From Acidimicrobiia bacterium (GTDB lineage Bacteria > Actinomycetota > Acidimicrobiia > Acidimicrobiales > CAIXPF01), in NCBI GenBank assembly GCA_009377505.1, contig WHTX01000015.1, positions 1 to 34,117 on the forward strand: a stretch of DNA of 34,117 nucleotides, in the 5' to 3' direction. The first letter of the stretch is position 1, and each line of letters opens with the position of its first letter. Shown piece by piece: positions 1-32,891 of the stretch. The notes under the pieces were generated by a model. That model searched no databases. It was not told the DNA's origin and saw nothing but the letters and a program-made list of their open reading frames with translations. Both the position numbers and the translations under genes were made by a program.

Positions 1-604
1 GAACGGCCTGTTCTCCGACAACACCGACTTCGACAACACCTGCGGCGACAACGGCGGTGTCGAGAGCTGGCTCGCTCCCTACGGCGAGTGCAACAACGGC
101 AAGGTCATCTCCATGGGCCACGACGCCAGCTGCTCGGTGCACGGAGGCTTCAAGCAGCTGCGGCCCGACTACGTCCCGTCCGTCAGCACGACGTCAGTGG
201 CTGCGGCGCCCACCGCTGCGGGACCGGTAGCGGCGAACCCGCCTGCCTCCTTCTCCACAGCGATGGTCCGTAGTGTCGTCATCACGAAGGAGCTCAAGGG
301 CGGACAGGCCAATGTCATGTTCGTGGCGCCAGGCGGCGTCGACGAGCTGTTGCAGGTGGCGAAGCAGTGCGTCGACCACTATCTCGATGAGTACAAAGCG
401 GCGTACTGCGAGGTGTTCGGGTCGGACGCGGATTTCGGGATGTCGAACGACGACGACGGAGACGGCTTCGGCAGCGCGTGCTGGGTCATGATCGTCGGCA
501 TCCCGCTGGTCGGCGGCGACTACCAAGTCACGGAGATGGGACAGATCAGCTACCAGCTCGACGGCTGTCCCGGCAGCGTCCTCCCGCCCGTGACCTCTGG
601 GTAG
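1..604 (+). CDS. Cys-rich repeat protein, C-terminal part (5' end outside window)
   Basis: The frame is open from base 2 and stops at TAG 602-604, so only the last ~200 residues are visible. The first ~57 residues form one Cys-rich repeat: NGLFSDN, a Cys, GGVESWLAPYGEC, then ASC-x-x-HGGF. This repeat occurs three more times in the gene at 12557-13927, and bases 1-111 are identical to 13384-13494. After a Thr/Ala/Pro linker comes a ~110-residue domain not seen in the paralogue, with several Cys and an acidic stretch (NDDDGDG). I do not recognise this domain. The Cys content suggests an extracytoplasmic protein. It ends 160 bp before the end of the oppositely oriented tubulin-like operon. The short C-x-x-HGG part faintly resembles DUF3761, but I would not assign it. 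The gene is clearly real; its function is unknown. Confidence 0.8.
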   Translation, partial: NGLFSDNTDFDNTCGDNGGVESWLAPYGECNNGKVISMGHDASCSVHGGFKQLRPDYVPSVSTTSVAAAPTAAGPVAANPPASFSTAMVRSVVITKELKGGQANVMFVAPGGVDELLQVAKQCVDHYLDEYKAAYCEVFGSDADFGMSNDDDGDGFGSACWVMIVGIPLVGGDYQVTEMGQISYQLDGCPGSVLPPVTSG

Positions 605-764: not shown

Positions 765-1643
765 CTAGATCTCGTGGAGGGGGAGCCAGCCGAGCCGCAC
801 GCATTCGAGCGCGTCTTGCGCCGGCCGGAAACCTCGGTCGGACTTGAGGAGCTTCTCCAGGCGACGCTGGGCGTGGTGGGTCTTGCCGAGCAGCCACTCG
901 CACAGTGCGAGCTCGTACTCGGCCACCGATCCGACGTAGGAGCGCCTCGGCGCCGCCGCCTTGGCGCTCACGAGCACTTGTCTCGCCTCGTCCGGCTCAC
1001 CCGTTCGCCGCAGCGCCCAGCCTTCGAACACCAGCAGGCCAGCGCTGAGCTCGTCCCGGCCGCTGGCGCCCCCCGCCAGGGCGAGCGCCCGCTCGGCGTC
1101 GCCCTCTTCGGCGGCGAGCTCCGCCGAGGCCAGGCACACGGCGTCCGACGCCGGCAGCGCAGCCAGCACACCCGCCGCCTCCTCCGCGGCACCCCCGTCC
1201 TGGAGCAGCTCGGCAAGCAGCAGGGACAGGGTCACGTGGTCGAGCGGGTGGCCGTACACCACGATGTCGAGCGCCAGGGGCACGGCGAAGGGCGCCAGCT
1301 TCCCCGGCGCCATCCGCGTGCACACGAAGGGGTGGTCCTGCAGGTTGTCGCCACCTTCGAGCGCGGTGATCAGGTACTCCTCGGCGGCGGCCAGGTCTCC
1401 CCGGGCGTAGGACTTCAGCGCGTACAGGGCGCACGCCAGGTAGCGGATGTTCGTGCGCTCGTCGTCGGCCAGCTCGCGGAGCCTGGCGAAGTTCCCGTCG
1501 CGCAGCGAGTCGTACAGCTCCTGGTGGCCACGGGGGTCGAAGCGCCCCGGCCTCGGCCCCTCCGACGGCCCGCCGAAGCTGTCGCGGACGGTCATGAGCG
1601 GCATGGGCAGGAGCCAGGCTGGCGCCTGAAGTGTGGTGGTCAT
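765..1643 (-). CDS. TPR-like helical repeat protein, last gene of the tubulin-like operon
   Basis: This 292-residue protein has no signal peptide or membrane segment. From about residue 45 it is a chain of Ala/Leu-rich helix pairs with TPR/SEL1 character, such as AR-GDLAAAEEYLITALE and GDAERALALAGG. That suggests a cytosolic scaffold or adaptor. It starts at ATG 1643-1641, only 4 nt after the TGA of the six-TM gene, with a GAGGA Shine-Dalgarno sequence directly upstream, so it is co-transcribed and probably translationally coupled. It closes the five-gene operon. No catalytic motif is visible. Assignment to the TPR superfamily rests on helix pattern and length; the partner is inferred from position only. 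Confidence 0.75.
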   Translation of the reverse strand: MTTTLQAPAWLLPMPLMTVRDSFGGPSEGPRPGRFDPRGHQELYDSLRDGNFARLRELADDERTNIRYLACALYALKSYARGDLAAAEEYLITALEGGDNLQDHPFVCTRMAPGKLAPFAVPLALDIVVYGHPLDHVTLSLLLAELLQDGGAAEEAAGVLAALPASDAVCLASAELAAEEGDAERALALAGGASGRDELSAGLLVFEGWALRRTGEPDEARQVLVSAKAAAPRRSYVGSVAEYELALCEWLLGKTHHAQRRLEKLLKSDRGFRPAQDALECVRLGWLPLHEI

Positions 1644-1647
1644 GTCC

Positions 1648-4647
1648 TCACATCACGTGTTCGTCGAAGGGCGCGTGGCCGTTCGTGGCCACGGCCGGGG
1701 CTGGGAACTCGCTGAGGGGCAGGTCCGAGCTGGCGAAGGGCATCGTCCAGTCCGAGCGCACGAAGGCGAGGATCAACCCGGCCGCTCCGGCGTCCACCGG
1801 CTCGCTTTCGTGTACGGCGACGTCGGGCAAACCCTGCGGCGCGGGCACGACCTTGCTCGGCCACCACACCCGCGGGCAGAAGCGCGCCCTGGGGTCGTCG
1901 GCGACGGGCAGCGGCATCCGGCGGAAGAAAGAGGCCGGCAGCTGCGGCGCCCGCCCCCTGACCAGCTCGCCGCCGAGCTCCTGGATCGTCTCCAGCGCTT
2001 CGTCCCCGCCCCGCTGGCGGTCGTCCCGCTCGAAGTACAGGCCGAACACCTGGCCACTGGCCACATCGCTCACCCGCTCGCGCAGGGCCCGGTCGAAGGT
2101 GCCCTCGTGCAGCATCCGCGCCAGCGCCCAGCGGCTGCTCTCGGGGCCATGGCCCGGAGCGTCCTCGGACGGCTCGATGCTCGGGTCTCGCTCCGGGTGC
2201 AGGTGGGCCAGCGTCTCGACATCCCGCCCGGTCCGGTGGGCCAGCTCGGGCCGGAACAGCTCGACCGCCGCGCCGTACTGGTGCTGGAGCCAGCCGGGCT
2301 TGGCGACCTCTCGCCGGATCCGCGCCAGCAGGGCGTCCCGGCCGTGCTCGCTCAGCTCGAACCGGGAGATGCGCAGGCTCATCGCCCCTGCCAGCTCCTC
2401 CAGCTCCGGGGCACGCCGGTCCTCGGCCGTCACCGGCGGCCCGAACGGCAGCCACACCAGGCGATTGAGCGCGGTGGCCGTGGCCACCAGCTGACCGTGG
2501 GCGATCCCGAGCCGTTCAGCCTGGCCCGCACAGGACAACGCCGCTTGCTCCGCCCAGCGCAGGCGCGCCGCCGCCCCGCCGAGCCGAAGGCGTTCCCCGA
2601 CGCGGAGCCAGGCGATGGTGACGAGCGTGGCGAGCACGGCGACCAGTAGGCCGCCCGCCCACAGCAGGAGCTGCTGGCGCCGGTCGCCGCTCGACATGTC
2701 GGCGTACCAGCTGTTCTGGCGAACGACGCCGCCGACGCCGCTCAGCGTCACATGGACGAGGAGGATGGCGCCCACCGCCTTGGCCGCCGTGGGCCCCCGG
2801 CGCCCGCCGCGCCCGTGGCACAACGCCGCCAGGGCAAGGAGGGCCGCGCCGAACAGCGAGGTCAGCAGGACCTCGCCGACCCGGACGGCGCCGATCGGAG
2901 GGGGAGCCAGGACCACGGCATCCTGGGCGGCCGCGGCGAGGAGCACGAGGACGCCGAACAGCACGCCGAGCTCGACACGCGCCTTGCCCAGGATCGACTG
3001 TCCACCGACCCTCGGGCCCTTGAGCACCGGCACGGCGCAGGCGAGCGCCGACATCAGCGCCACGCCAGAGAGCGCCAACCAGGCCACCGTCCGCTGGTCC
3101 TCGTCCCACTCGAGCAGCCCGGCCGCCTCGGCCAGCCCGGAGAGCACGGCACCCGTGGCCACGAGGCCGACGAAGAGCGTGGCCATCACCCAGTTCAGCG
3201 CCCCCAACAACGGGCTCGGCCGCCGGTCGAGCACCTCACGCGCCCGCCGGAAGTCGGCCATCGCTGCAGTGGCCGCCCCTTCAGCGGCCTGCCATTGGGC
3301 GCGGACACTGCTCGCCACCCTGCCGAGGAGGGTCTCGCCACCGTCATCACCACTCGTCAGCTGCTGGCGGACCGCAGCTGCGCCGCTCGACGGATCTGGC
3401 CCGAACACGGTCGGGTCCGACACGACGAGCCGTCGCCCCTCCTCGGTCGGCGGGGCGACGGCCGGCGCCGGCCCACCGTCGACGAGGGCGAGGGCGTTGT
3501 CCACGAGCTCGCCCCACTCCGCCCGGCTGACACGGGAGCCGTCGATCTCCTCGCGCCGGTGGGCCACGGCGGACTCGAACTCGGCGACCGTCCCTGGCCC
3601 CGAGGTCTGCGACCCGGGTGCCGGGTCCATCCCCGCCCACACCGTGGTGAGCTTTGCGTCTTCGCCGATCGCCGCGTTGATCGACTCACCGGCGAGGTGC
3701 TCGAGGTCCGACAGCACGCTCGTGCGCAGTTGGCGGGGGATGCCGGCCAGGTAGCGGCCGGTCTCCCTGCCGATGCGGCCGGCGGCCGTGCGGACGTCCA
3801 CCGCCTCGCGTTCGTCGGGCCGTGCCGGCGGTTGCTCGAAGCGCAGCCCGGGCAGGCGCGCCAGGACGGCATCGGCCCACCTGGTGACGTCTCGGGACGG
3901 GTTATAGGAGACGTCACACCCCGGCGGCACGGGGAGGGGCCGCATGGAGGTGAGCGCCTCGTCGACGGGGAGGGGTGGGCCGACGGCAACCCGGGCGAAG
4001 CTGCGGGCGACCATGACCTTGGCGTCGCCCGACCCCGTGACGCCCGGGGCGCCGTCCTCGATCGGCGCCTCGGGCATCCCCTGCCACAGGCCTGCCTGGG
4101 TAGCGACGCCGACGGCCACGTGACCGGCGAACACCTCCGGGCGCTCGGCGGACAGGGGCATCGAGAAGGCCTCGTCCGAGGGACGATCCTCGGGAAGGAG
4201 CACCACGTTGGCCTGCGCCCTCGGCGTGAACAGCTCGACCAGCGGTGTCGGCCGGTCCAGGTCGGTCAGGGCGAGCACACGTGCCTCGACGACGACGGCC
4301 GAAGGCGGACGGTGTCGCTCGAGCTGGTCGGTGACGTGTATGGCGGCGCCGGCCAATGCCGGCACGTCCGAAAGGGGCAGGGCGCTGGACGCGACGGTCA
4401 CCACGTGCGCCACCTCGACCCGGTGCTGCTCGGCGAGCCGGTCGAGGAGAGGGCCCCCCTCCTGGGGCCCGTCGGCTCCGACGCGCCAACAGCGGAGCGT
4501 CGGCTGGGGGCCGTCGCCGGCGTCGACGACCCACAGCGGGCGGATGAGGCGCGCCACGGCGAGCCGCTCCAGGCCCTCGAGGGCACGGCGCACGACCTCG
4601 TCGGCCCGCGGGTGGACGACCAGCACCGTGACACGCGACGACGTCAT
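1648..4647 (-). CDS. Large six-TM membrane protein of the tubulin-like operon
   Basis: The product has 999 residues. Residues 1-470 form a soluble N-terminal region without a recognised domain. Six hydrophobic segments follow at about 483-505, 521-542, 559-580, 590-610, 624-643 and 660-682, then a ~310-residue soluble C-terminal region. The frame is open 32 codons further upstream. I chose ATG 4647-4645 because it overlaps the TGA of the tubulin-like gene by one base (TGATG), the usual sign of translational coupling, and the extension is Arg-rich shadow sequence. I do not recognise the family. Its position directly behind the tubulin-like gene suggests a membrane anchor for that protein (inference). 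A decayed copy of its C-terminal region (around residues 845-955) lies at 13930-14247, showing that a second copy of the gene once existed. Confidence 0.85.
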   Translation of the reverse strand: MTSSRVTVLVVHPRADEVVRRALEGLERLAVARLIRPLWVVDAGDGPQPTLRCWRVGADGPQEGGPLLDRLAEQHRVEVAHVVTVASSALPLSDVPALAGAAIHVTDQLERHRPPSAVVVEARVLALTDLDRPTPLVELFTPRAQANVVLLPEDRPSDEAFSMPLSAERPEVFAGHVAVGVATQAGLWQGMPEAPIEDGAPGVTGSGDAKVMVARSFARVAVGPPLPVDEALTSMRPLPVPPGCDVSYNPSRDVTRWADAVLARLPGLRFEQPPARPDEREAVDVRTAAGRIGRETGRYLAGIPRQLRTSVLSDLEHLAGESINAAIGEDAKLTTVWAGMDPAPGSQTSGPGTVAEFESAVAHRREEIDGSRVSRAEWGELVDNALALVDGGPAPAVAPPTEEGRRLVVSDPTVFGPDPSSGAAAVRQQLTSGDDGGETLLGRVASSVRAQWQAAEGAATAAMADFRRAREVLDRRPSPLLGALNWVMATLFVGLVATGAVLSGLAEAAGLLEWDEDQRTVAWLALSGVALMSALACAVPVLKGPRVGGQSILGKARVELGVLFGVLVLLAAAAQDAVVLAPPPIGAVRVGEVLLTSLFGAALLALAALCHGRGGRRGPTAAKAVGAILLVHVTLSGVGGVVRQNSWYADMSSGDRRQQLLLWAGGLLVAVLATLVTIAWLRVGERLRLGGAAARLRWAEQAALSCAGQAERLGIAHGQLVATATALNRLVWLPFGPPVTAEDRRAPELEELAGAMSLRISRFELSEHGRDALLARIRREVAKPGWLQHQYGAAVELFRPELAHRTGRDVETLAHLHPERDPSIEPSEDAPGHGPESSRWALARMLHEGTFDRALRERVSDVASGQVFGLYFERDDRQRGGDEALETIQELGGELVRGRAPQLPASFFRRMPLPVADDPRARFCPRVWWPSKVVPAPQGLPDVAVHESEPVDAGAAGLILAFVRSDWTMPFASSDLPLSEFPAPAVATNGHAPFDEHVM

Positions 4648-7600
4648 CACATCACCGCGGACATGTCGCCGAGCTCGAGGTGCTCGAGCGCGGTGACCAG
4701 CTCCGACAGGGCCCGGTCGATCATCGAGTACATGCCCGGCCATACCGCCCGCTCCGAGCCGTGCACGGCCGCATCGTCGAGCGACCGCTTGCGGTGCAGC
4801 TCGATCTCGTTGGCGTAGTCCCGAGCGGTCGAGGTGAAGACGCCGATCGCCGCTTCCCTCCGGTCCGTCGCCGAGGCCGACGTCAGGTCACCAGACCTGA
4901 GCTCGACCACGGGCGTGGACAGCTTCGGCCCAGCGTCGCCGATGCGCACCCAGCGGTCGAGCGCGCCGTTGAGCCGCTCGTAGACGTGCGCGGCCTGCAT
5001 CGTGGTGAGGCCGGGCTGCAGGCCCAGGTCGCGCAGCGCGACGTAGGCGCCGAGCGGCTCGAGGCTCTGGAGCTGGGCCACCTCGGCGTAGGCGAGCCCG
5101 AGCGCCTCGAGCACGGCGGGGAGCAGGTCACGGTGCTGGCCAACCTCCCGCAGGAGCGGCTGGGGGAACGAGCACGTCTTGTTCCCGGCAGCGATGCACC
5201 GGCGCTCCCGGTCGATGCGACCGAGCAGCAGCCCGGTGAACCACCCCCGGGTCATGGCCAGGATCACCTCGTGGGAGGCGGGCACGAACTCCTCCACGGG
5301 CCGGGCCCGCCGGCTGGTCCAGAAGTTCGTGCGCGCCGGCGGTGACTGCTTGGCCGCGTTCCAACCGCGGACGATCGGGTCCATGATCGACGCGAAGACG
5401 AGCGGGTCGTGCGCGGCGCCGAGCGTCGAGGAGATGGAGATCGACCGGACGTTCTGCGCAGTCGAGAACTGGGCGCCCAGGTCCCCGGGCGCCGAGCCCC
5501 CGCCGAGCGCGTGGGAGAGGATGTCGGCGACGACCTCCTCCATCGGGTGGTCCTTGAAGGGCAGGGTGCTCGGCACCGGCCGCTGCGGGATGCTCGGCCG
5601 GTGGTGCAAGAGGGACAGGAGCCCCGTGTCCAGTCGGACCAGGGGCTCGGCGGCGCCGAGGGCCGAGGTGAGGGCAGTGCGGAACGCCGCCCGACGTTGG
5701 GCCGTCTCGGCCGGGTCGACCGTCTGGTCGTCGCCGAGGTAGCTCCGCAGGTCGCTCCCGAGGAAGCGGCTGAACGAGGCCGCCGGCCGCCCCAGCCAGG
5801 CCCGGGCCCTGCGCAGCAGGTCCTCGGCCGAGAAGCTCGTCGTGAAGGTCGCCGCAGCGCGCGGCTGCACGCCACCCAGCAACCACGACGTGTCCGGGGA
5901 CCACGCCGTGCGGATCTCGACCGGTGGGGCCAGGTCCGCCGATCCGTCCTCGCTGAGGAAGTCGCCGACGATCACGGAGGAGCGGGCCTCGATGACCGAT
6001 TCCCCGGCCAACTTGGAGCGGGTGGAGCTTGCCAACAGGTCCTCGAAGCGGCCCGGGAACTCGTCGAGGTCCAGCACGAGGAACTCGTTGCGCGGCGGGC
6101 GCAAGCGCGTCGGCACGGGGCCGTCCGGCCAGGAGCGCACCAGCGGCTCGCGCACCCCGTCGCCCACCATCCCCAGCTGGTGCAGGTGCGAGCGGGCGTG
6201 CTCGAGCGAACGAGCCAGCGGCGTCAGGAAGTCGGTCCGCAACCCGTCGAGGAGGGCCCGGGCGACCTCACGCCGCCGCGCCTCGGCACGGTAGTTGCCG
6301 CCCACCCATATGCCCTGCCTCATGGCGTCCTCGATCGCCGCGTTCGTGAAGGGCACGTTGCCGGACTGCGTCAGCCGGGCGGCGATCTCGCTCCGGTAGC
6401 CCTCGGACCAGCGGAGGTGGTCCGTCATCTCCTCGCCGAGCTCCCGGCAGGCGTCGGCCAGTTCCTCGGCCACGTAGCGGACCAGCACGGCCGCGGTCTC
6501 GAGGCCGTGGCGGCTGACGACGGCGAGCACCTCCTCGAGGACCCGACGGGGCGCCTCGTCGACCCAGCTCCGGGCGCGGGCGCGCAGGCGCTCGTCATAG
6601 GCCTGCATCAGCGCGTCGGCGTTCCCGGGGATCACCTCGGCGATCCGCGTGGTCCAGGCCTGCGCCGGCATCGCCTTGTCCGACCGGACCTGTTCCCCGA
6701 TGTTGCCGAGCGTGGCGTGCAGCAGCTGCTGGGCCTCCTCCGGCTGCAGGTTGTCGATGACCTGGTCCGAGCCGTTGCGCTCGTACAGGCGCGCGGCCCG
6801 CAGGAAGTGCACCAGCTCGTCCCGGGCGAGGGCCTCGGCGATCTCCCGCGGGTCGCGGGCGTCGTTCGGGTCGATGTCGAGGGCCCGCCGGTGGTGGCCG
6901 TCGAGCAGCCACTCCGCGGCCATGCGCGCCAGGCGTTCCTCGCTGTAGCGGCCGAAGCGGTCGAGCCCGAGCCCGACCTCCGCGTAGCCGAACGCTTCGA
7001 ACACCGGCTGGTGGTCGCGCACGACGATGTCGGCCTTGACCGCGTTGCCCTCGGCGCTGCTCTGCCAGTTGGCCATCGTGTACTCGACGAGCTTGATCTG
7101 GATCGTCGGGTCCGTGGCCCAGCCGCGCAGGGCGCGGCCCATCATGGCGTACACCTCCCTCTGGTCACCGAACGTGACACCGCGGGTGTTCGAGGCGCCG
7201 ACCAGGAAGGGGAAGGCGGGCCCGCTGCGGTCGATGGGGGTCGAGGCGCCAGCGGCGGCGAAGAGGGAGCTGGCCCGGGCGTAGTTGCCGGTGAGCCAGT
7301 ACCCGTTCATCAGCTCGCTCAGGGCGGCGAGGGCGTTCGGCTGGACCCCGGCGGTCGCCGCGTCGCCCAGCTGGGCGAACACGTCGGACGCGTAGAGGAT
7401 CCCGAAGGTGTTCCTCCCCGCCGTGCCGGGGAGCTGGCGCAGCAGGTCACAGGCGTCGAGCAGGAGGCCCGCACCCGTGCCGCCGGCGAGGGAGGACACG
7501 ACGATGACCACGGGCTCGGTCGGGGTGTGGGCTTGTTTCCCGTAGGCGAGCTGGTGGATCTCGGCCAGCTCCGCGCCCGCCGAGGCCGACGACAGCCGGG

Positions 7601-8027
7601 CGTGGGCGCCGCGCAACGCGTCGAGGATGCGGTCGGCGTAGGCCAGGCCGATGGTGCGCCCGACGGCGCGGTACTGGCCCGCGCCGGTGGTGATCGGGAC
7701 CCGCAGGTACGTGGGGTCGACCCGCCAGCCGGCGAGGTCCCGCCACCCCTCCTCGGGGCTGGCGCCGCTCACCTTGTCCGACACGGCGCGGAAGTCCACG
7801 CCCGACATGACCAGCCCGAGGTAGTTCGACGGCGGGAGCAGCTCGACCTCCTCGATCTCGCCGCCGTCCTGGGCGGTGGGCGTGTCGATGTGGATCATCT
7901 GCCAGGCGCTCGGCATGCCGCCGGTCCAGCCGATGGTGTCGAGCCAGCCCAGCAGCTCGTGGCGGAGGAACCGGAGGGTCTTGCCACCGGAGCCGCCGAG
8001 GCCGACGAAGAGGAACTTTCGGAGCAC
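4647..8027 (-). CDS. Tubulin/FtsZ-like GTPase-fold protein (Tubulin_2-type)
   Basis: The product has 1126 residues. The N-terminus has a Gly-rich nucleotide-binding loop (VGLGGSGG, residues 8-15), IDTP at 47-50 and GQYRAVGR at 117-124. Residues 178-187 read SSLAGGTGAG, matching the tubulin/FtsZ signature GGGTG[ST]G. This combination is typical of the Pfam Tubulin_2 family, part of the FtsZ-like families that Makarova and Koonin linked to VWA proteins and proposed to act in membrane remodelling. About 800 further residues are unassigned. No membrane segment is seen, so it should be cytosolic. It starts at ATG 8027, 29 nt after the VWA gene, and its stop overlaps the start of the six-TM gene. 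GTP binding and polymerisation are inferred from the family. The family call is secure; the cellular role is not. Confidence 0.9.
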   Translation of the reverse strand: MLRKFLFVGLGGSGGKTLRFLRHELLGWLDTIGWTGGMPSAWQMIHIDTPTAQDGGEIEEVELLPPSNYLGLVMSGVDFRAVSDKVSGASPEEGWRDLAGWRVDPTYLRVPITTGAGQYRAVGRTIGLAYADRILDALRGAHARLSSASAGAELAEIHQLAYGKQAHTPTEPVVIVVSSLAGGTGAGLLLDACDLLRQLPGTAGRNTFGILYASDVFAQLGDAATAGVQPNALAALSELMNGYWLTGNYARASSLFAAAGASTPIDRSGPAFPFLVGASNTRGVTFGDQREVYAMMGRALRGWATDPTIQIKLVEYTMANWQSSAEGNAVKADIVVRDHQPVFEAFGYAEVGLGLDRFGRYSEERLARMAAEWLLDGHHRRALDIDPNDARDPREIAEALARDELVHFLRAARLYERNGSDQVIDNLQPEEAQQLLHATLGNIGEQVRSDKAMPAQAWTTRIAEVIPGNADALMQAYDERLRARARSWVDEAPRRVLEEVLAVVSRHGLETAAVLVRYVAEELADACRELGEEMTDHLRWSEGYRSEIAARLTQSGNVPFTNAAIEDAMRQGIWVGGNYRAEARRREVARALLDGLRTDFLTPLARSLEHARSHLHQLGMVGDGVREPLVRSWPDGPVPTRLRPPRNEFLVLDLDEFPGRFEDLLASSTRSKLAGESVIEARSSVIVGDFLSEDGSADLAPPVEIRTAWSPDTSWLLGGVQPRAAATFTTSFSAEDLLRRARAWLGRPAASFSRFLGSDLRSYLGDDQTVDPAETAQRRAAFRTALTSALGAAEPLVRLDTGLLSLLHHRPSIPQRPVPSTLPFKDHPMEEVVADILSHALGGGSAPGDLGAQFSTAQNVRSISISSTLGAAHDPLVFASIMDPIVRGWNAAKQSPPARTNFWTSRRARPVEEFVPASHEVILAMTRGWFTGLLLGRIDRERRCIAAGNKTCSFPQPLLREVGQHRDLLPAVLEALGLAYAEVAQLQSLEPLGAYVALRDLGLQPGLTTMQAAHVYERLNGALDRWVRIGDAGPKLSTPVVELRSGDLTSASATDRREAAIGVFTSTARDYANEIELHRKRSLDDAAVHGSERAVWPGMYSMIDRALSELVTALEHLELGDMSAVM

Positions 8028-8056
8028 GGGGGTTCTTTCCTGGGGTCGTTGGTTCG

Positions 8057-10642
8057 TCAGAACCAGGAGGGGCGAGGGGGAGGAGCCGAAGCCTGAGCTG
8101 CCGACGTCCGAGCGGCGGGCACTGTGGCTGGCCGCTCGTCGGGCCGGTCGCTCGGCGATGGCCGCAAGGGCACGTCGGCCGGCCGTGGGGGTGCGGGCGG
8201 GCTGGCCGGGCGCGAGGCCGCGTCGGCCGGTCGTGGGGCTGCGCCGGTCGCCGACGGGGAGCTGTCCGTGCCCTGGTCACCGTGGGTGGGGGGCGCGTTG
8301 GACCCCTGCTGGGCCGGGCGCGGGCGGCCGTTGTCGGCCAGGCGGGCAGCGGCTGCGCGCAGGCCGTCCTCGAGCACCTGTGCCGCCTGGGCAGCAGTGA
8401 ACCGTCGGGGAGCGAGCAGGACAGCCTCGGCCGGCTCCTCCTCGCCGCTGGTGTCGTCGCGGACGATCACCACGGCGAGCTGGGTGAAGTGCGAGGTGAT
8501 CACGCCGGACCTGGCCCGTCGGGAGTGTGTGGCGGGCAGGGAGGTGGCGCAGTCAGCGCCGGGGTAGCTGATCCTCGCCGTCGGGGTGGCGAAGGGGTGG
8601 CGGGGGAGCCGCCGCTTCAGGCTCCCTCCACCCGGGAGGTGGAACTGCGTCCGGTCGCCCTTGAGCGGTCGGAGGTCCTCCATGGCGACCTCCCCGTCGA
8701 GCGTCGCTGACGTTGGCCCGTCACGCCGCACGCGGGCGGGGACCGACACGGCGAGGAACTCCTCGGGCGAGGGGAGCCGGCTCTGCCGCCAGGTCAGGAG
8801 CCACAGGACCCCGAGGGGCACCAACACGCTGATTGCCGCCAGGCCCAGGGCTGCGAGCGTTGCCTTGGCCCGGTCCGGCGACCGGGCGAGGGCTAGGTCG
8901 TCGACCTCCAGCGCGCTCGTGCCGAGGTCGCGGGCCTCCTGCCCGTCGTCGAAGGTGGCGCTGTACCCGGTGCTGAAGCTGGCAGCACCGTTGCGCTGGT
9001 CGGTGAGCTCGAGCGTGGCGGGGACGAGGACCTCCGTCCCGGCGTCGAACGGTGCGCAGGCGTCCCGGGGCGCGTCAGCGCGGAGGCTCCCGATCGGAGC
9101 GCCGTTCTCGTCGAGGACGGCGGCCGGCCCGTCGCCGAGCACCACGCAGAAGCGGGCGCCGGGGATGGTGGCCCGCGCCGTGAAGACCAGTTCGCCGACG
9201 TGGCGGCCGGTGCCCTCGATCGACCGGGGCCCTCGCCAGGCGGCGGACGGTTGCGGGGGCAGGTCGGCGACGGCGAGGCTGCGGCTCACTGTCCCGAGTG
9301 CGGGGTCGCCGGTGATGGCGCCGCGGAACGTAGCCGTCGCCATCAGGTCGACGGAGGACCGGTCCCCTCCGGGGATGCTGGCGACCCAGACGTGGCGGTC
9401 CCCATCCCAGCTCGTGGGCACGGGAGCGCCTGACGCCGTGGCAACGAGGTCGACATCCTCGGGACCGAGCCCACCGCTGGTCGGCTCCTCTGGTCGAGCC
9501 ACCACGAGGTCGACGGTGTGGGTGGTCGAGCCCCGGTAGAGCTGAGGGCCCTCGAGCACCTGCGCGGCGGCGTCGAGGTCGACGAAGCAGGCCCGCAGGG
9601 GCGCGCTGGGCTGCACCACGAGCCTACCGCCGGCGTCGCGGACCTCAGCTGGGAGCTCCGTGTCCGTCGTGGGACCGGCGACCTGCAGTGGCGGGTGCGG
9701 TGGGGCGAGCGGCACGGTCGCCGTGGCGCCCGGCGGCAGCCGGAAGGCCACGCCAGCGATGGCGGCGACCGGCAAGGTGCCGTCCATCAGCCGGTTGCAG
9801 TCGACTTCGACGGCCCCGCTCGTCTCCTGGAACTGCCGGAAGAAGGAGTCGGCCAGCTGATCGGCAGAGCTGAGGACGTCCCGTTGCCCGCTGATAGAGC
9901 ACGGGCCGCCCGGTGTGAAGAGCGCCTGGAGCACGGGGTCGGCGTTCGTCCGCAGTTGCACCGTGCGGCTGTTCGGTGACCCGGTGCGCAGCTCGCTCAG
10001 CCGGGCGTCGAAGCCCGCGTTCCTCAGCTCCTCGGCCAGGGGCCGAGGGTTCACCGCGCTCGGGGGCGGAGGCCCGCAGACCAGCTGGGACAGCTCGTGG
10101 GTCACCGACCACGGGTCGGTCGTCGTCGAGTAGGCGGGCGAATCGCCGGCGTCGATGGTGGCGACGTCGTGCGCCCCGTCGGTGAACCAGACCAGGGTCT
10201 TGCACTCCTTGGGCGCGGCGATCGAGGCGAAATGGCTGGCGGCACCGCGCAGGGCGACGACGTAGTCGGTGTTCTGGCCGCCGTTACGTTGGTGGAATGC
10301 CTCGAGCTCGCCGCGCGCCGCGCCGGCGCCGGACGGCAGGTCGTAGCGGCCGTAGGGCTGGTACCTGCCATCGAAGCCTGCGATCGCCGCGCTGACCGCC
10401 CCCTCGCGCGGCGCCGATGTGGCGAGGAGGTCGATGAGCTGCTGGGAGGCGCTGACCCGCTCGCCTCCCGGGTCGGTCTGGCGGAGGCTGCCTGACTGGT
10501 CGAGCAGGAGCAGCACGTGGCGGACGTCGCAGCCTTGGGCGGTGGCGCCGGGCACCTCGGCGGCCGACGCGAGCGGTGTCGACAGGGCTGGGAGGATGGT
10601 GGTGCCGATGAGCAACGCCAGGAGCAGGGCGCCGCGCCTCAT
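8057..10642 (-). CDS. Secreted/membrane-anchored von Willebrand A domain protein
   Basis: The product has 861 residues. A signal peptide is visible (MRRG, hydrophobic core, ALSTPLASA at about 19-27). A VWA domain follows with a full MIDAS metal site: D48-x-S50-x-S52, T125 and D155 (FTDG). Residues ~280-580 look like beta-rich extracytoplasmic domains. A single TM segment lies at about 593-617, followed by a ~240-residue cytosolic tail whose last ~90 residues are rich in Pro, Ala and Ser. The frame is open 168 codons further upstream. I placed the start at ATG 10642 because a clean signal peptide begins there and it overlaps the preceding stop as ATGA. The topology (MIDAS outside, Pro-rich tail inside) fits a sensor or adhesin that talks to the cytosolic tubulin-like protein encoded next; that role is inferred. 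Confidence 0.9.
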   Translation of the reverse strand: MRRGALLLALLIGTTILPALSTPLASAAEVPGATAQGCDVRHVLLLLDQSGSLRQTDPGGERVSASQQLIDLLATSAPREGAVSAAIAGFDGRYQPYGRYDLPSGAGAARGELEAFHQRNGGQNTDYVVALRGAASHFASIAAPKECKTLVWFTDGAHDVATIDAGDSPAYSTTTDPWSVTHELSQLVCGPPPPSAVNPRPLAEELRNAGFDARLSELRTGSPNSRTVQLRTNADPVLQALFTPGGPCSISGQRDVLSSADQLADSFFRQFQETSGAVEVDCNRLMDGTLPVAAIAGVAFRLPPGATATVPLAPPHPPLQVAGPTTDTELPAEVRDAGGRLVVQPSAPLRACFVDLDAAAQVLEGPQLYRGSTTHTVDLVVARPEEPTSGGLGPEDVDLVATASGAPVPTSWDGDRHVWVASIPGGDRSSVDLMATATFRGAITGDPALGTVSRSLAVADLPPQPSAAWRGPRSIEGTGRHVGELVFTARATIPGARFCVVLGDGPAAVLDENGAPIGSLRADAPRDACAPFDAGTEVLVPATLELTDQRNGAASFSTGYSATFDDGQEARDLGTSALEVDDLALARSPDRAKATLAALGLAAISVLVPLGVLWLLTWRQSRLPSPEEFLAVSVPARVRRDGPTSATLDGEVAMEDLRPLKGDRTQFHLPGGGSLKRRLPRHPFATPTARISYPGADCATSLPATHSRRARSGVITSHFTQLAVVIVRDDTSGEEEPAEAVLLAPRRFTAAQAAQVLEDGLRAAAARLADNGRPRPAQQGSNAPPTHGDQGTDSSPSATGAAPRPADAASRPASPPAPPRPADVPLRPSPSDRPDERPATVPAARTSAAQASAPPPRPSWF

Positions 10643-11082
10643 TGGCGGGACCACGCTTCCGCCATCATCCAGCCGTGCCCACAGGCCGCTCCGACAGCGC
10701 AGAGCGCCATGACCGTGGCCACGACCGCCGGGCGCCAGCGCGGGATCACGTAGTCCGACCGGGTCGATCGCTTGACCTCTGCTGATCGGAACCAGGCGAA
10801 CATCCCGAGGGCGAGCCAGGCCCCGCTCAGCCAACCGATGACATTCAGCCGTGAGATCTCGCTGGCCGCCATGGTGTCGGTCCTCGCCAGGGGGAGCAGC
10901 GCCACCGCCGTCGCCGCGGCGACGAGGAGGGCGGCGAGCGGGACGAGCGGTGGTGTGGCTGACGAGGACGGGTCCTTGCCCGCAGCGAGGCCCGCCCAGC
11001 CGAGTGGCACCGGTGGGGCCGCTGCAGGGGTGCGCGGGGGCGGCGCCAGGCCGGGTGGTGAGATCGAGTTGGGAGACCCCAT
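10639..11082 (-). CDS. Small three-TM protein with Pro-rich N-terminus, first gene of the tubulin-like operon
   Basis: The product has 147 residues. The first ~45 are rich in Pro, Ala and Ser. Three hydrophobic segments follow: LVPLAALLVAAATAVALLPLA, LNVIGWLSGAWLALGMFAWF and AVVATVMALCAVGAACGHGW. The frame extends far upstream, but ATG 11082 has a strong Shine-Dalgarno sequence (GGAAGG, 6 nt upstream on the coding strand), and the extension is Arg-rich noise. Its TGA overlaps the ATG of the VWA gene (ATGA). It is probably the first gene of the leftward operon, with its promoter in the 11083-11327 gap shared with the divergent gene at 11328. The family is not recognised. Confidence 0.75.
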   Translation of the reverse strand: MGSPNSISPPGLAPPPRTPAAAPPVPLGWAGLAAGKDPSSSATPPLVPLAALLVAAATAVALLPLARTDTMAASEISRLNVIGWLSGAWLALGMFAWFRSAEVKRSTRSDYVIPRWRPAVVATVMALCAVGAACGHGWMMAEAWSRQ

Positions 11083-12556: not shown

Positions 12557-13927
12557 GTGGTGACCATCGGGCCGACGCTCTCGCCACCGCCGCCGCTTCC
12601 TCCGCCTCCGCCGCTCCCGTTGGCGGCCCCGTCGGGCCCGCCACGGCCCCAACCGCCGACGGGTGGCGGGTGGCGGTGGTTCCGGAGCCAGCCGATGTGG
12701 GTGCAGGTGGTGCTCGCGCTGATGGCGCCGCCGCTCCCCCTCCTGCTGCACACGCTCGGACGCGCCCCCCGCCAGCGCAAGGCTTGGTGGGCGCTGACGA
12801 TGTTCGCCACCCTCGCCTGGGCGGTGGTCGGCGCCGCCGCGGTCGGCTCGTCCCCCGAGGAGGGCACGGTGGCCGTGGATGCCGTCGCTGACGCGCCGAC
12901 GACGACGGTCGACCCGGTCACCCGGGCCATCGGCGACGGCTACGTCGCCCGTTGCAAGGACGGCGACTTCTCGAACAACCTCGACTTCGGCAAGACCTGC
13001 TCCGGCGGTGACGGGGTCGACACCTGGCTCGCCACCTACGGGCAGTGCCGGGACGAGTCCGTGATCATCATGGGCCCGGAGGCCAGCTGTGATGGCCACG
13101 GCGGCTTCCGCTACCTCCTCCCGGCGGGCTACGAGCCCACGGCGGCCACGTCGGACCTGGCCAAGTGCAAGAACGGCCTCTTCTCCGACAACAGCGACCT
13201 GGCGGCGGCCTGCAGCGCCAACGGCGGTGTCGACAGCTGGCTCGCTCCCTACGGGGAGTGCAGCGACGGCTCGTTCATCATCATGAGCAAGGACGCCTCG
13301 TGCGACGGCCGCGGCGGCTTCCGCGCCCTCGTCCCGGTCGACCAGGGGCCAACGGCACGGCCGGATGACGTCGCCAAATGCGCGAACGGCCTGTTCTCCG
13401 ACAACACCGACTTCGACAACACCTGCGGCGACAACGGCGGTGTCGAGAGCTGGCTCGCTCCCTACGGCGAGTGCAACAACGGCAAGGTCATCTCTATCGA
13501 CGAGGACGCGAGCTGTTCGGTGCACGGTGGGTTCAGGGTCCTCCGACCCGACTACGTCCCGCCCGTCACGACGACGACCGCCCCGCCGCCCCCCACGGCG
13601 CCTTCCCCCGATGCCACTGCGTTGTCCGGCAACGACGGCGTGGTCAGCGAGCTCGAGTGGATCGCGGCTGGCATCGTCCTGGAGAACCAGGGGCTGGGCT
13701 ACGCGACCACGATGATCGGGCTCGAGGACGCTCAGGAAATGGCGACGGCGATCTGCAGCGCCGCGCCGGCGATGTCCTCGCAGGAGTCCCTGATGTTCGC
13801 GCTCTACACCAGCGCGCGCGGCAGCGGGTTCTCGGGCTACGAGGCAGAGACCGTCGTCCCGGCGCTGGCAGGGGCGCTGATGGTGGCCGCGTGCGAGTCC
13901 GAGTTCGACCGGCTCGTCGGCGCCTGA
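12557..13927 (+). CDS. Membrane protein with three Cys-rich extracellular repeats
   Basis: The product has 456 residues. A Pro-rich N-terminus (1-38) is followed by two hydrophobic segments (~47-67 and ~77-98) and a Thr linker. Three ~60-residue repeats lie at 130-189, 201-260 and 271-331. Each has four Cys in constant spacing (for example C204, C219, C235, C249), with the motifs NGLFSDN, GGV-[DE]-SWLAPYGEC and ASC-x-x-[HR]-GGF. A PTTTT/Pro linker and a ~100-residue C-terminal helical domain with two Cys follow. The start at GTG 12557 is tentative; no good Shine-Dalgarno sequence is visible. Four Cys per repeat suggest disulfides or metal binding outside the cell. The third repeat is partly identical at DNA level to the start of this window. 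The C-terminal domain vaguely recalls DUF732 but is not assignable. Confidence 0.82.
   Translation: MVTIGPTLSPPPPLPPPPPLPLAAPSGPPRPQPPTGGGWRWFRSQPMWVQVVLALMAPPLPLLLHTLGRAPRQRKAWWALTMFATLAWAVVGAAAVGSSPEEGTVAVDAVADAPTTTVDPVTRAIGDGYVARCKDGDFSNNLDFGKTCSGGDGVDTWLATYGQCRDESVIIMGPEASCDGHGGFRYLLPAGYEPTAATSDLAKCKNGLFSDNSDLAAACSANGGVDSWLAPYGECSDGSFIIMSKDASCDGRGGFRALVPVDQGPTARPDDVAKCANGLFSDNTDFDNTCGDNGGVESWLAPYGECNNGKVISIDEDASCSVHGGFRVLRPDYVPPVTTTTAPPPPTAPSPDATALSGNDGVVSELEWIAAGIVLENQGLGYATTMIGLEDAQEMATAICSAAPAMSSQESLMFALYTSARGSGFSGYEAETVVPALAGALMVAACESEFDRLVGA
12944..13549 (+). repeat. Three tandem copies of the Cys-rich domain
   Basis: Units at 12944-13123, 13157-13336 and 13367-13549 encode homologous ~60-residue domains. 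Units 2 and 3 are also similar in DNA. A fourth unit, with 111 bases perfectly identical to 13384-13494, opens the window at base 1. Confidence 0.85.
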
Positions 13928-13929
13928 GG

Positions 13930-14247
13930 TCGCCGGCCACCGGCAGGGGTCTCCGCCCGAAGAACGACGCCGGCAGGTGTCGAGCCCGTCCCCGGACCAG
14001 CTCCCCCCGAGGTCCTCGATCGTCTCGAGCGCCCCCGTCCCCCCCGGTGACGGTCGTCGCGCTCGAAGTACAGGCCGAGCACCTGTCCGCTGGCCACGCT
14101 GCTCACCGCTCGCCCCGCGCCCGGTCGAAGGTGCCCTCGTGCAGCATCTGGGCCAACGCCCAGCGGCGGCTCGCCGGCCGCTCGTCGGGCCCGTCAGCCC
14201 CCGGCTCGATGCCCGGGTCCTGCTCCGGGTGGAGCTGGGACAGGGCC
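13930..14247 (-). pseudogene. Decayed fragment of a second six-TM protein gene
   Basis: Read on the - strand in changing frames, this stretch encodes pieces nearly identical to the C-terminal region of the 1648-4647 product. Examples are RWALAQMLHEGTFDRA (RWALARMLHEGTFDRA in the intact gene), VASGQVLGLYFERDD and HPEQDPGIEP. Several indels break the frame, and neither the 5' part nor the 3' end is present. It starts 3 bp after the stop of the Cys-repeat gene and ends abruptly near 14247 at a junction with unrelated sequence. It is a remnant of a duplicated tubulin-like gene cluster. Confidence 0.85.
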
Positions 14248-14612
14248 TGGTCTGGGCGAAGCGCGACACAGGCGACACCCTGTTCGCGCTGCCCAAGGGC
14301 CGGCGGAAGCTCGCCAACCTGTACCGCGACCCGCGGGCGACCGTCGTGATCTTCGACGCGGCCAACCCGTGTGAGAGCGCCCAGGTGCAGGGCACGGCCT
14401 CCATGGAGGACGAACCGGGCGGCATGATGATCGATGACCTGTCGCACATGATACGGGCGGGCGCTATCCCGGGTTCGCGGGGCCGGACCCGCGGTGGGCG
14501 ACCGATCACGGCCGACAAGGTCACGACCAGCTGGCCCGAACTCGTGAGCTCCCGGCCTTTGGCTGGAGCGGATCAGGGCCGGAGCGCCATGACCGCGGCG
14601 ACGGTGGCGTAG
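14248..14612 (+). pseudogene. N-terminally truncated pyridoxamine-5'-phosphate-oxidase-like fragment
   Basis: The + strand frame reads LVWAKRDTGDTLFALPKGRR, then KLANLYRDPRATVVIFDAANP, a V-x-GTAS turn, DDLSHMI and PITADKVTTSW. This is the order of strands seen in the small split-barrel F420/FMN-binding oxidoreductases. The N-terminal strand that normally precedes VW is missing. The sequence instead runs into the decayed - strand fragment at 13930-14247, so no start codon belongs to it. The frame stays open to TAG at 14612. It is a truncated gene joined at a rearrangement breakpoint near 14248. An intact relative lies at 18226-18696. Confidence 0.65.
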
Positions 14613-22478: not shown

Positions 22479-22892
22479 TCACGACTCGTCGGCGTCGAGG
22501 CGCTCCATCGGCTGGCCGGTCACCTCGGCGATCAGCTCGAAGTCCTTGTCCACGTGCAGGACCGTGAGGCCGGCGAGCTCGGCCGCGGCGGCGATCATCA
22601 GGTGGGGAATGGACGGCGCCCGGTGCTGGCCGCGGGCGGCGAGCAGCGCCAGGACCTCCACGGCGCGGTCCTCGATGGCGGGGGTGAGGTACTTGATCGG
22701 CATGGCGGAGAGGGGCGGCTGGCGGGCGGCGCGCCGTAGGTCGGCCGCCGAGCGTGCCGAGAAGCCGACCTCGAGTCGGGTGACCGTCGTGACCCGGACA
22801 AGGCCCCGTTCGATGCGCTCGGCCCAGAGCTGAGCATCGGGGCTGTCGCCGAGCCGGGCCAGCGCGGCCTTGTCGACCAACCAGGTCGTCAC
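22479..22892 (-). CDS. vapC: VapC-type PIN-domain toxin
   Basis: The product has 137 residues: [12 protein letters not shown] at the N-terminus (D7), TRLEVGFSA with the conserved Glu, and [20 protein letters not shown] at the end. PIN toxins cut RNA using three or four acidic residues. In the third motif ([13 protein letters not shown]) His stands where relatives usually have Asp (PDLLIAA), so activity may be reduced. The start overlaps the antitoxin stop as ATGA, the typical vapBC coupling. The family is confident; whether the toxin is active is open. Confidence 0.9.
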
Positions 22893-23104
22893 GACCAGGC
22901 GCCGCCCATCACGGCGGGGTCGGCCAAGTCGGCGAAGGTCTCGGCGAACCCGGCCAGGTCCTCGACGGTGACGGCAGTCCTCTGCGCCTCAGCGGACAGC
23001 TGCCGGCGGAGGAACTCGCTGCGGGAGAGGCCCAGCTTGCGAGCCCGTTCGTCGAGGGCGGCGACGACGTGCTCGGGTACGTCCCGGATCAGGATGTCGG
23101 CCAT
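22889..23104 (-). CDS. vapB: VapB-type ribbon-helix-helix antitoxin
   Basis: The product has 71 residues: [20 protein letters not shown] followed by [13 protein letters not shown] is the ribbon-helix-helix DNA-binding pattern. The C-terminal ~25 residues ([15 protein letters not shown]) would wrap the toxin. Start ATG 23104 has GGAGG 8 nt upstream. It probably represses its own promoter through the repeats at 23123-23139. Confidence 0.88.
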
Positions 23105-25163: not shown

Positions 25164-25388
25164 ATGCGTGACTCGACTACCGTTCGTTTGTCAACAAGGA
25201 CGCGTCACGAACTTCGCCGGCTCGCCGACGCCGACGGCGTGACCCTCGACCAGGCGATCGCCGCGCTGGTGCGCGCCGAGCGACAGCGCCGCATGGGCGA
25301 GGCGCTCGCCGCGGCCGAAGTCACCGCGGCTGACACGTCCTGGCTCGAGCTCGGGCTCCGCACGGTGGCGGACGATGCGAGCCGGTGA
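25164..25388 (+). CDS. MazE-like antitoxin
   Basis: The product has 74 residues. The N-terminus STTVRLSTRTRHELRRLAD followed by DGVTLDQAIAALVRAE is a ribbon-helix-helix-type DNA-binding segment. The acidic C-terminus (TAADTSWLELGLRTVADDA) would neutralise the toxin. It starts at ATG 25164 directly behind the palindromic operator. Its last 14 nt overlap the toxin start. Confidence 0.85.
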   Translation: MRDSTTVRLSTRTRHELRRLADADGVTLDQAIAALVRAERQRRMGEALAAAEVTAADTSWLELGLRTVADDASR

Positions 25389-25710
25389 CGTCGTGCGCAT
25401 CGACTTCGGCGTCCCCATCGGGAGCGAGCCCGGCTTCGTCCGGCCCGCTGTGGTGGTGACGGCCGATCTCGTCCTCGAGGCGCGCCCGCGGACGATCCAC
25501 GTCGTCCCCATCACGAGCAACACGCGCCGTCGACTTCCCACCGAGGTGCCGGTGAGTGCGGCCGCGCTCGACCGCCCGTCGGCCGCCCAGTGCCACCTCT
25601 GCACCGTGGTGAGGATCCAGCGGGTCGAGGAGGGCGACTTCGGTGAGATCGGTGCCGCGGCGCTCGCTGAGGTGCGCTCTCTCCTCGGCGACCTGCTCGA
25701 CATCGGGTAG
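25375..25710 (+). CDS. mazF: MazF/PemK-type endoribonuclease toxin
   Basis: The product has 111 residues. Family marks are RAGDVVRIDFGVPIGSEPG, FVRPAVVVTADL, the core strand HVVPITSNTRRRLPTEVPV, and the Ser-containing segment SAAQCHLCTVVRIQRVE. The catalytic Arg and Thr positions of MazF (RPAVVV, PITSN) are kept, so it should be an mRNA-cleaving toxin. The start overlaps the antitoxin stop, giving coupled translation. Confidence 0.92.
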   Translation: MRAGDVVRIDFGVPIGSEPGFVRPAVVVTADLVLEARPRTIHVVPITSNTRRRLPTEVPVSAAALDRPSAAQCHLCTVVRIQRVEEGDFGEIGAAALAEVRSLLGDLLDIG

Positions 25711-26298: not shown

Positions 26299-26598
26299 TC
26301 AGCTGGTGATGGCGCGGACCGCCCGTCGGGCCTGGCGGAGCGTCTCGGCGCCAGCCCATTCGACGCGCTCGAGCAGCCGGTCGATCGCCAAGGTACCGAG
26401 TTGGTTGACGGCGACGGCCCGGTTCTCCGTGAGGGGGATGTGCCAGGGCCTGGGTGGGACGGGGGCCGTCAGGAGCACGGGCGCGACGATCGCCCGTTCT
26501 GCGAGGCGGTGGAACCTCGAGTCCGAGATGACGAAGACGAGCCGTCGTGCTTCCTCGCCACGATCGGCCAGCCAGATGTCGCCGGCGGCGGCTGTCAA
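26299..26598 (-). CDS. MazF/PemK-type toxin, second module
   Basis: The product has 99 residues: GDIWLADRGEEARRLVFVIS, DSRFHRLAERAIVAPVL, WHIPLTENRAVAVNQLGTLA and a C-terminal helix (WAGAETLRQARRAVRAI). This is the MazF/PemK barrel in the short version without an obvious RPVVV motif. The start overlaps the antitoxin stop as ATGA. It is read toward the gene-free stretch 25853-26298. The family is likely; cleavage specificity is unknown. Confidence 0.85.
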   Translation of the reverse strand: MTAAAGDIWLADRGEEARRLVFVISDSRFHRLAERAIVAPVLLTAPVPPRPWHIPLTENRAVAVNQLGTLAIDRLLERVEWAGAETLRQARRAVRAITS

Positions 26599-26828
26599 CG
26601 GAGAGCGTCCATCCAGCCGTCGACCTCGGCCTCGATGCGCTTGCGCTCGGCGCGCTGTTCGGCGGTCTCGGCGGCAGCCGCCGCCTCCGCCTCAGTCCAG
26701 AACTGCTGCGCCTCGTAGGCGTCCAGGGCGGCGACGACGACGTCCTCGAGCGAGTCGCCTTCGGCGGCCAGCGCCCGGAGACGGTCGCGGGTGGCGGTCG
26801 CGATCTTCATCGTCGTCACGTCTGCCAT
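26595..26828 (-). CDS. Antitoxin of the second MazF-like module
   Basis: The product has 77 residues: TTMKIATATRDRLRALAAEG followed by SLEDVVVAALDAYE is ribbon-helix-helix-like. A long Ala/Glu-rich helix (EAEAAAAAETAEQRAERKRI) and DGWMDALR follow. It overlaps the toxin by 4 nt. On the coding strand TATACT (26840-26835) lies 6 nt before the ATG, so the transcript is probably leaderless. Confidence 0.85.
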   Translation of the reverse strand: MADVTTMKIATATRDRLRALAAEGDSLEDVVVAALDAYEAQQFWTEAEAAAAAETAEQRAERKRIEAEVDGWMDALR

Positions 26829-32157: not shown

Positions 32158-32490
32158 ATGTCGTCGACGATGACCGTGAGCCAGGCGAGGGCGGCGCTAC
32201 CCGAGATCATCGAGCGCGTCCTCGCCGGTGAGGAGGTCACCCTCACTCGCCACGGCAGGCCCGTCGCCGTCGTCGTGAACCCGGACATCCTCCGGGTGCG
32301 CCGAGCGGGCGAGACGTTGGCCGTGGCGGCGAACGTCCGCGAGGTCCTCGACGAGGCTCGGCGGTCGCCGCTGCGGGACCAGCCGACGCTGACCAAGGAC
32401 CGGGCCGAAGCGCTTGTCGCCGAGGTGCGAGCTGCCCGGTCCGACCGCCAGCGGAGCGCGACGTGGACGCCTTCGACGCCGACGTGTTGA
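32158..32490 (+). CDS. Phd/YefM-family antitoxin
   Basis: The product has 110 residues: MTVSQARAALPEIIERVLAG, then EEVTLTRHGRPVAVVVNPD is the Phd/YefM DNA-binding fold. The C-terminal part (REVLDEARRSPLRD, LTKDRAEALVAEVRAARSD) would contact the toxin. Start ATG 32158 lies behind a phased operator. The gene overlaps the toxin start by 28 nt. Confidence 0.92.
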   Translation: MSSTMTVSQARAALPEIIERVLAGEEVTLTRHGRPVAVVVNPDILRVRRAGETLAVAANVREVLDEARRSPLRDQPTLTKDRAEALVAEVRAARSDRQRSATWTPSTPTC

Positions 32491-32891
32491 TCTACGCTGC
32501 CGTGCCCGGGCACGAGTTGGGCCGGCGAGTCCGCCACTTGTTCCCTTCGGGAGCGGTCGAGGCCAAAGGCGTCGTGGCAGGTATCGGCTCGCTCCTTCTC
32601 CTGCCCGAGCTCATGGCGAAGCCGCTCCGCGACGGGGCCAGCGACGAGCTGGCCGCGCTCGGCGCTCTGCTCAGTCGGCTCGAGCTGCGCCCTCTGGACG
32701 ACGCGACCGCGGACCTCGCCACGGCGCTCGGCGCGGTGTACGGGCTTCGTGCCGCCGATGCCGTACACCTCGCCACCGCGGTCGGCGCCGGCGCCGACCG
32801 CTTCCTCACCAACAACACCAAGGACCTCCCGAAGTCCATCACCGAGATCGACATCACCTACCCCACTGACCTGCCGATCCCCAAGCGCTGA
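32463..32891 (+). CDS. PIN-domain (VapC-like) toxin
   Basis: The product has 142 residues: MDAFDADVLIYAAVPGHELG carries the first acidic residues, LLLLPELMAKPL the conserved Glu, LRAADAVHLATAV the second Asp, and DRFLTNNTKDL the last motif. These are the PIN nuclease residues. The start at GTG 32463 overlaps the antitoxin end. The Phd-type antitoxin with a PIN toxin is a known combination. Confidence 0.9.
   Translation: MDAFDADVLIYAAVPGHELGRRVRHLFPSGAVEAKGVVAGIGSLLLLPELMAKPLRDGASDELAALGALLSRLELRPLDDATADLATALGAVYGLRAADAVHLATAVGAGADRFLTNNTKDLPKSITEIDITYPTDLPIPKR

Follow-up and report, generated by a model that had tools for sequence, protein, structure and literature searches.

Tubulin-like proteins of the FtsZl1 type are already known to be paired with vWA proteins, and a membrane-remodelling role has been predicted for this pair (Makarova & Koonin 2010, PMC2875224), so that the association of FtsZ-like and VWA families, which a first-pass annotation of the DNA studied here took for established knowledge, is indeed published. 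An Actinomycetia version of the tubulin, accompanied by a DO-GTPase and GAP1-N2, has likewise been published, as a system predicted to act in biological conflicts (Kaur et al. 2020, PMC7159879). In the literature searched, we found no experimental work on the module, its ligand or a phenotype for any of its members. The locus that we compare with these systems lies in a window of 34,117 nucleotides, the whole stretch of DNA analysed, which belongs to an Acidimicrobiia genome of 5.35 Mb in 494 contigs that is ~92% complete. Like the FtsZl1-vWA systems (PMC2875224), it encodes a Tubulin_2 protein with tubulin-like, helical and C-terminal parts, an adjoining vWA gene with an intact MIDAS, and TM proteins nearby. 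However, the protein kinases, P-loop GTPases and OmpA that are frequent partners of FtsZl1 are absent from this operon, and the fixed pair of a small and a large TM protein found here is not named in the main text of that paper. With the systems of Kaur et al. (PMC7159879) it shares a tubulin with a helical C-terminal part and a membrane-bound vWA protein, as seen from profile matches and a shared tree, and the same four-gene core lies next to GAP1-N2 in 22 Actinomycetia loci. Unlike those systems, this genome and the other Tubulin_2 genomes of its order carry neither GAP1-N2 nor DO-GTPase2, a homologue of the third downstream partner is lacking from their loci, and the large protein has six TM segments instead of two. 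As such, the tubulin-vWA pair and the GTPase-linked system are published, and what is new here are the fixed four-gene core, the families of its large and small TM proteins, the GTPase-free form and the co-transfer of the core; the part of the literature that was covered, text without figures, yielded nothing on the fixed core, the GTPase-free form or co-transfer.

The locus consists of five intact reading frames, all on the minus strand (Table 1). The small TM and vWA genes overlap by ATGA, a 29-nt gap separates the vWA gene from that of the tubulin-like protein, the latter overlaps the large TM gene by TGATG, and 4 nt lie between the large TM and TPR genes. The same-strand operon that had been proposed therefore stands, with its couplings exactly as claimed. 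While the TPR protein matches TPR_19 in Pfam (E 1.3e-6), the large and small TM proteins have no Pfam match. NCBIfam names none of the five proteins, its nearest entries falling far under their curated cut-offs, and PADLOC has no match for the operon.

Table 1. Features of the operon and its surroundings, in window coordinates.
Feature	Position	Strand	Remark
Small membrane protein gene, first core gene, 147 aa, 2-3 TM segments	10639..11082	-	
vWA protein gene, 861 aa, with signal peptide, vWA domain outside the cell, C-terminal TM helix and a predicted cytosolic tail of 245 aa	8057..10642	-	
vWA domain, residues 43-156, DxSxS/T/D MIDAS	10175..10516	-	PF13519 E 3.7e-7
C-terminal TM helix of vWA protein, residues 598-616	8795..8851	-	
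Tubulin-like (FtsZl1/Tubulin_2) gene, 1126 aa	4647..8027	-	
Tubulin_2 domain	6918..8012	-	E 3.6e-45
T4 nucleotide-loop motif GGTGAG, residues 182-187	7467..7484	-	
Large membrane protein gene, 999 aa, six TM, unnamed conserved family	1648..4647	-	
Six-TM segment of large protein, residues 480-678	2614..3210	-	Two TM in most relatives
TPR protein gene, 292 aa, locus-specific	765..1643	-	
Direct repeat copy 1, in Cys-rich repeat gene	1..193		90.7% identical to 13384-13576
Direct repeat copy 2	13384..13576		
Decayed fragment, second large-protein gene, frame broken, internal stop	13923..14303	-	80% nt identity to 1888-2211

The tubulin-like protein matches PF13809 (Tubulin_2) in Pfam with an E of 4.8e-44 and 151.5 bits, against a curated cut-off of 27. 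Its AlphaFold2 model, built from an alignment of 43 sequences (pLDDT 88.8, pTM 0.82), runs from an N-terminal tubulin-like domain through a long helical region to a C-terminal mixed domain, and Foldseek, at a probability of 1.00 and an E of about 4e-4, gives FtsZ (4dxd), TubZ (2xka) and tubulins as its best PDB matches. The fold is, with high confidence for a modelled structure, FtsZ/TubZ-like, which bears out the tubulin/FtsZ signature first read from the GGTGAG motif. Among the aligned proteins, a GxGGSG near the N-terminus, D48, GAGQ and AGGTG are near-invariant; they align with T1, NTD, T3 and T4 of FtsZ in a forced alignment whose score alone is not significant. By hhalign, the tubulin-like domain also matches the host FtsZ weakly (E 0.1), and it is on Pfam and Foldseek, not on this match, that the assignment to the tubulin superfamily rests. 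While the fold, T1, T4 and a T3-like loop are shared with FtsZ, TubZ and tubulin, the protein differs from them in its identity of about 12-14%, its length of about 1100 aa, a T7 that is not recognisable, and the absence of an FtsZ_C or Tubulin_C domain in the Pfam search. In the segment where T7 would lie (residues 306-345, between the presumed H7 and the next strand, a position taken from the order of elements in the model), there is no conserved acidic residue, the near-invariant acid D356 coming after it. For that reason it is uncertain whether the protein hydrolyses GTP or polymerises in the ordinary way, and the missing acid agrees with the earlier report that T6-H7 could not be placed in FtsZl1 (Makarova & Koonin 2010, PMC2875224). 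The nucleotide-loop motifs are nevertheless kept, leaving GTP binding and polymerisation as putative activities. The nearest relative, with 45% identity, is found in a Microthrixaceae MAG. The host retains its own FtsZ beside the tubulin-like protein, and a separate FtsZ is present in all 14 Tubulin_2 genomes tested.

In the vWA protein, which Pfam assigns to VWA_2 (E 5e-7), the MIDAS is formed by D48-x-S50-x-S52, T125 and D155. Across 35 aligned vWA proteins D48, S52, T125 and D155 are invariant and S50 nearly so, so that the MIDAS-complete domain read from this single sequence is conserved in the family; several cysteines are conserved in the same alignment. Together, the MIDAS and cysteines are as expected of an exported, disulphide-bonded domain that would depend on a metal. 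All 35 proteins carry one C-terminal TM helix followed by a tail of 149-310 aa, and most have an N-terminal hydrophobic stretch; a few of the called starts are probably short. Instead of the freely secreted protein that was envisaged at first, we thus predict a single-pass protein, anchored by its C-terminal helix, with the MIDAS outside and the tail in the cytosol.

The large protein is predicted to have both its N- and C-terminus inside, with charges of the loops fitting this topology. Six-TM and two-TM forms are homologous from end to end by profile comparison (E 2.7e-34 and 2.6e-37), and the six-TM forms make up one clade in the tubulin tree, with a support of 97. Matches to PDB or viral proteins were absent at E <= 0.001, the top rows being long helices. 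A single-protein query against 397 genomes of the phylum returned only the protein itself, a method that is too insensitive here, as the search with an alignment did succeed. We also considered the large protein as a divergent GAP1 and as the third downstream partner; both were rejected, since hhalign probabilities were about 0 and, in each case, the two proteins occur next to each other within one operon. In one relative (G336) the large protein has gained a trypsin-like domain. A C-terminal trypsin-like serine protease domain, with its motif visible in the sequence, is also added to the large TM protein at L014:3587-6838 (minus strand), and Trypsin_2 matches one large-protein relative at E 1.3e-28. 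For the small protein, described before as having three TM segments, two hydrophobic segments are strong, while the third is weaker. Iterative searching brought its family to 43 members, and its profile matches that of the Actinomycetia form (probability 96.3, E 1.9e-9), just as the vWA families of the two groups are homologous by profile comparison (E 4.8e-33). On these sequence comparisons, both TM proteins, large and small, represent conserved families. We found no description of either in the main texts of the literature examined, although a figure of Kaur et al. may show the large protein. The suggestion that the partners are undescribed thus holds in this sense for the two TM proteins, but not for the TPR protein, which is locus-specific and no conserved partner. 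With a vWA domain outside, a TM helix and tail, polytopic proteins and a tubulin-like protein in the cytosol, the predicted system does span the membrane, as had been proposed, with the transfer of force across it a putative function.

Tubulin homologues were gathered from the order and the phylum, an alignment scan added 78 named loci, and a script based on codon usage predicted the genes in the fetched loci. Of the 54 loci with a called tubulin of this family, 53 have the vWA gene immediately upstream of the tubulin gene, and a large TM gene was recognised directly downstream of it in 50 of the 51 loci whose sequence continues. The exception is a Nesterenkonia locus (L068), in which an unrecognised 888-aa protein with two TM segments follows the tubulin gene; L084 has a split tubulin gene. 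Small TM, vWA, tubulin and large TM genes hence form a core of fixed order in 50/51 readable loci, counts that are not fully independent due to near-copies (L051/L052 and L087/L089). The TPR gene is present at the window locus alone and at none of the other core loci, and was rejected as a core member. Within the order, Tubulin_2 is present in 15 of 298 genomes, and the large protein (E <= 1e-15) in 14 of these 15 and in 0/283 of the others (Fisher p = 4e-23); six further profile matches (E 1e-4 to 1e-7) covered short helical segments only, and were treated as chance. As such, the co-occurrence proposed for all five families is found for tubulin and large protein, with the order of four genes fixed, and does not extend to the TPR protein, a locus-specific add-on. 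Other loci (L055, L057, L060, L061, L064, L077 and others) have extra multi-TM or one-TM genes flanking the core that vary by lineage, which, like the TPR gene of the window, occupy a variable accessory slot. Further Tubulin_2 pieces (called at 196 and 915 aa) are located upstream of the main tubulin in an Acidimicrobiaceae MAG (L056). In two MAGs titled Gammaproteobacteria (L067) and Bifidobacterium breve (L052), the operons are nested in, or near-identical to, operons from Acidimicrobiia or from a different actinobacterium, and these contigs are probably misbinned.

Downstream of the core, the 22 Actinomycetia loci carry a family of ~660-1130 aa, GAP1-N2 and mostly also a recognised gene of the DO-GTPase family; this arrangement is the tubulin system that Kaur et al. 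(PMC7159879) described in actinobacteria. By contrast, neither GAP1-N2 nor DO-GTPase2 was found in any of the 15 genomes of the order that have Tubulin_2, that of the window included (15/15), while Corynebacterium glutamicum, the positive control, carries Tubulin_2, GAP1-N2 and DO-GTPase2. Both are lacking as well from a genome in one contig (G311) that belongs to another family of the phylum. Despite the incompleteness of our genome a missed gene is an unlikely cause, because the same absence recurs in the 14 others, and the core can therefore stand without the GTPase arm. In the tubulin tree a branch with a support of 97 sets the loci with the arm apart from the rest; since this tree is unrooted, gain and loss of the arm cannot be told apart.

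The history of the core differs from that of its hosts. Distances in the tubulin, large protein and vWA trees agree with each other (Spearman 0.70-0.79, 0/2000 permutations), while those of the tubulin do not follow the host FtsZ (rho 0.04, p 0.39), nor do those of the large protein (rho 0.19, p 0.13); the vWA protein is a weak exception, with a weak positive correlation (rho 0.31, p 0.013). These tests cover 12-13 genomes, and the conserved FtsZ lowers their resolution. Because the core trees agree mutually while the tubulin tree departs from that of FtsZ, the comparison suggests that the core is a cassette transferred as a unit between species. Around the operon of the window, a direct repeat of 193 bp flanks both sides, and the broken piece of a second large gene together with this bracketing repeat is a decayed duplication. 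Since the contig begins within the first copy, the assembly probably broke at the repeat. Paired Cys-rich repeat proteins, built around NGLFSDNTDFDNTCG...GGVESWLAPYGEC and probably exported, are encoded on either side of the operon (12695-13927 and 2-604, both plus strand), with no Pfam match above cut-off. Toxin-antitoxin genes are found elsewhere on the contig, at 22479-23104 (minus), 25375-25710 (plus), 26299-26828 (minus) and 32170-32891 (plus), and comprise a PIN with a ribbon-helix-helix partner, two that are PemK/MazF-like, one of them with a small neighbour gene, and a Phd/PIN pair. Near the operon there are no known defence genes other than these pairs, at about 11 kb and more.

So what could such a locus do? 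With topology, families and linkage established by sequence or model, we infer sensing, coupling, assembly and output as follows. The metal-dependent vWA ectodomain would bind a ligand or sense a perturbed envelope, and the vWA tail and large TM protein would relay the signal to the tubulin-like partner. The latter may then assemble at the membrane in a nucleotide-dependent manner, and this assembly would lead to a local membrane or stress response. The DO-GTPase/GAP1-N2 arm would be an added regulator of the core in Actinomycetia, with the core of the Acidimicrobiales standing without it, and the TPR protein would be a local add-on. An accessory, horizontally moving complex of four proteins, predicted to cross the membrane and to couple a sensor to a tubulin-like assembly, is the reading that we prefer, although we hold the chances that it is right to be about even. 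On this reading a stress or conflict response is more likely than a role in cell shape, because the patchy distribution, the transfer as a unit and the link to a conflict system speak for a facultative function over that of a housekeeping cytoskeleton.

That housekeeping cytoskeleton, a polymer that shapes or remodels the membrane and has the vWA protein as its anchor in the wall, is close to the envelope cytoskeletal system named in the first-pass annotation, and draws on the tubulin fold, the membrane-spanning partners, the long helical stretch that follows the tubulin-like domain and the membrane remodelling predicted in PMC2875224. We nevertheless do not favour it and consider it improbable: the core is found in just 15/298 genomes of the order, departs from the history of FtsZ in hosts that have a separate FtsZ, has a sister version in a predicted conflict system, and a decayed extra copy adjoins the operon. 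That broken second large gene between direct repeats could also mean that in this genome the operon itself is no active system but a relic in decay, which is very hard to reconcile with five intact, tightly coupled frames with conserved motifs. A full conflict system against phages or competitors in the sense of Kaur et al., with the tubulin as the assembling effector and the Acidimicrobiales form as its GTPase-free version, deserves somewhat more credit than the cytoskeleton, yet is still rather doubtful. GAP1-N2 and DO-GTPase2 adjoin the same core in Actinomycetia, the horizontal behaviour and patchy distribution would fit, and the trypsin-like domain on the G336 large protein is a theme of such systems; on the other hand, the toxin-antitoxin pairs are distant and the only defence neighbours, PADLOC recognises nothing, and GAP1, the core partner of Kaur et al., is absent from this genome. 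More tentatively than the sensor complex that we prefer, the locus may be an autonomous, transferred and metal-gated transmembrane tubulin machine, in which four genes are self-sufficient and DO-GTPase/GAP1 is an optional controller that joined in one Actinomycetia lineage. If true, a polymer of the tubulin family would have in the large TM protein a membrane receptor or anchor that has not been described before.

The function of FtsZl1/Tubulin_2 has been open since 2010, and the four-gene core provides a small gene set with which to study it. Moreover, its naturally GTPase-free form sets the core apart from a GTPase arm that was until now regarded as central. Should the core be able to work by itself, a metal-dependent domain outside the cell would be coupled to a tubulin-like assembly in the cytosol, in a form that is mobile as one cassette.
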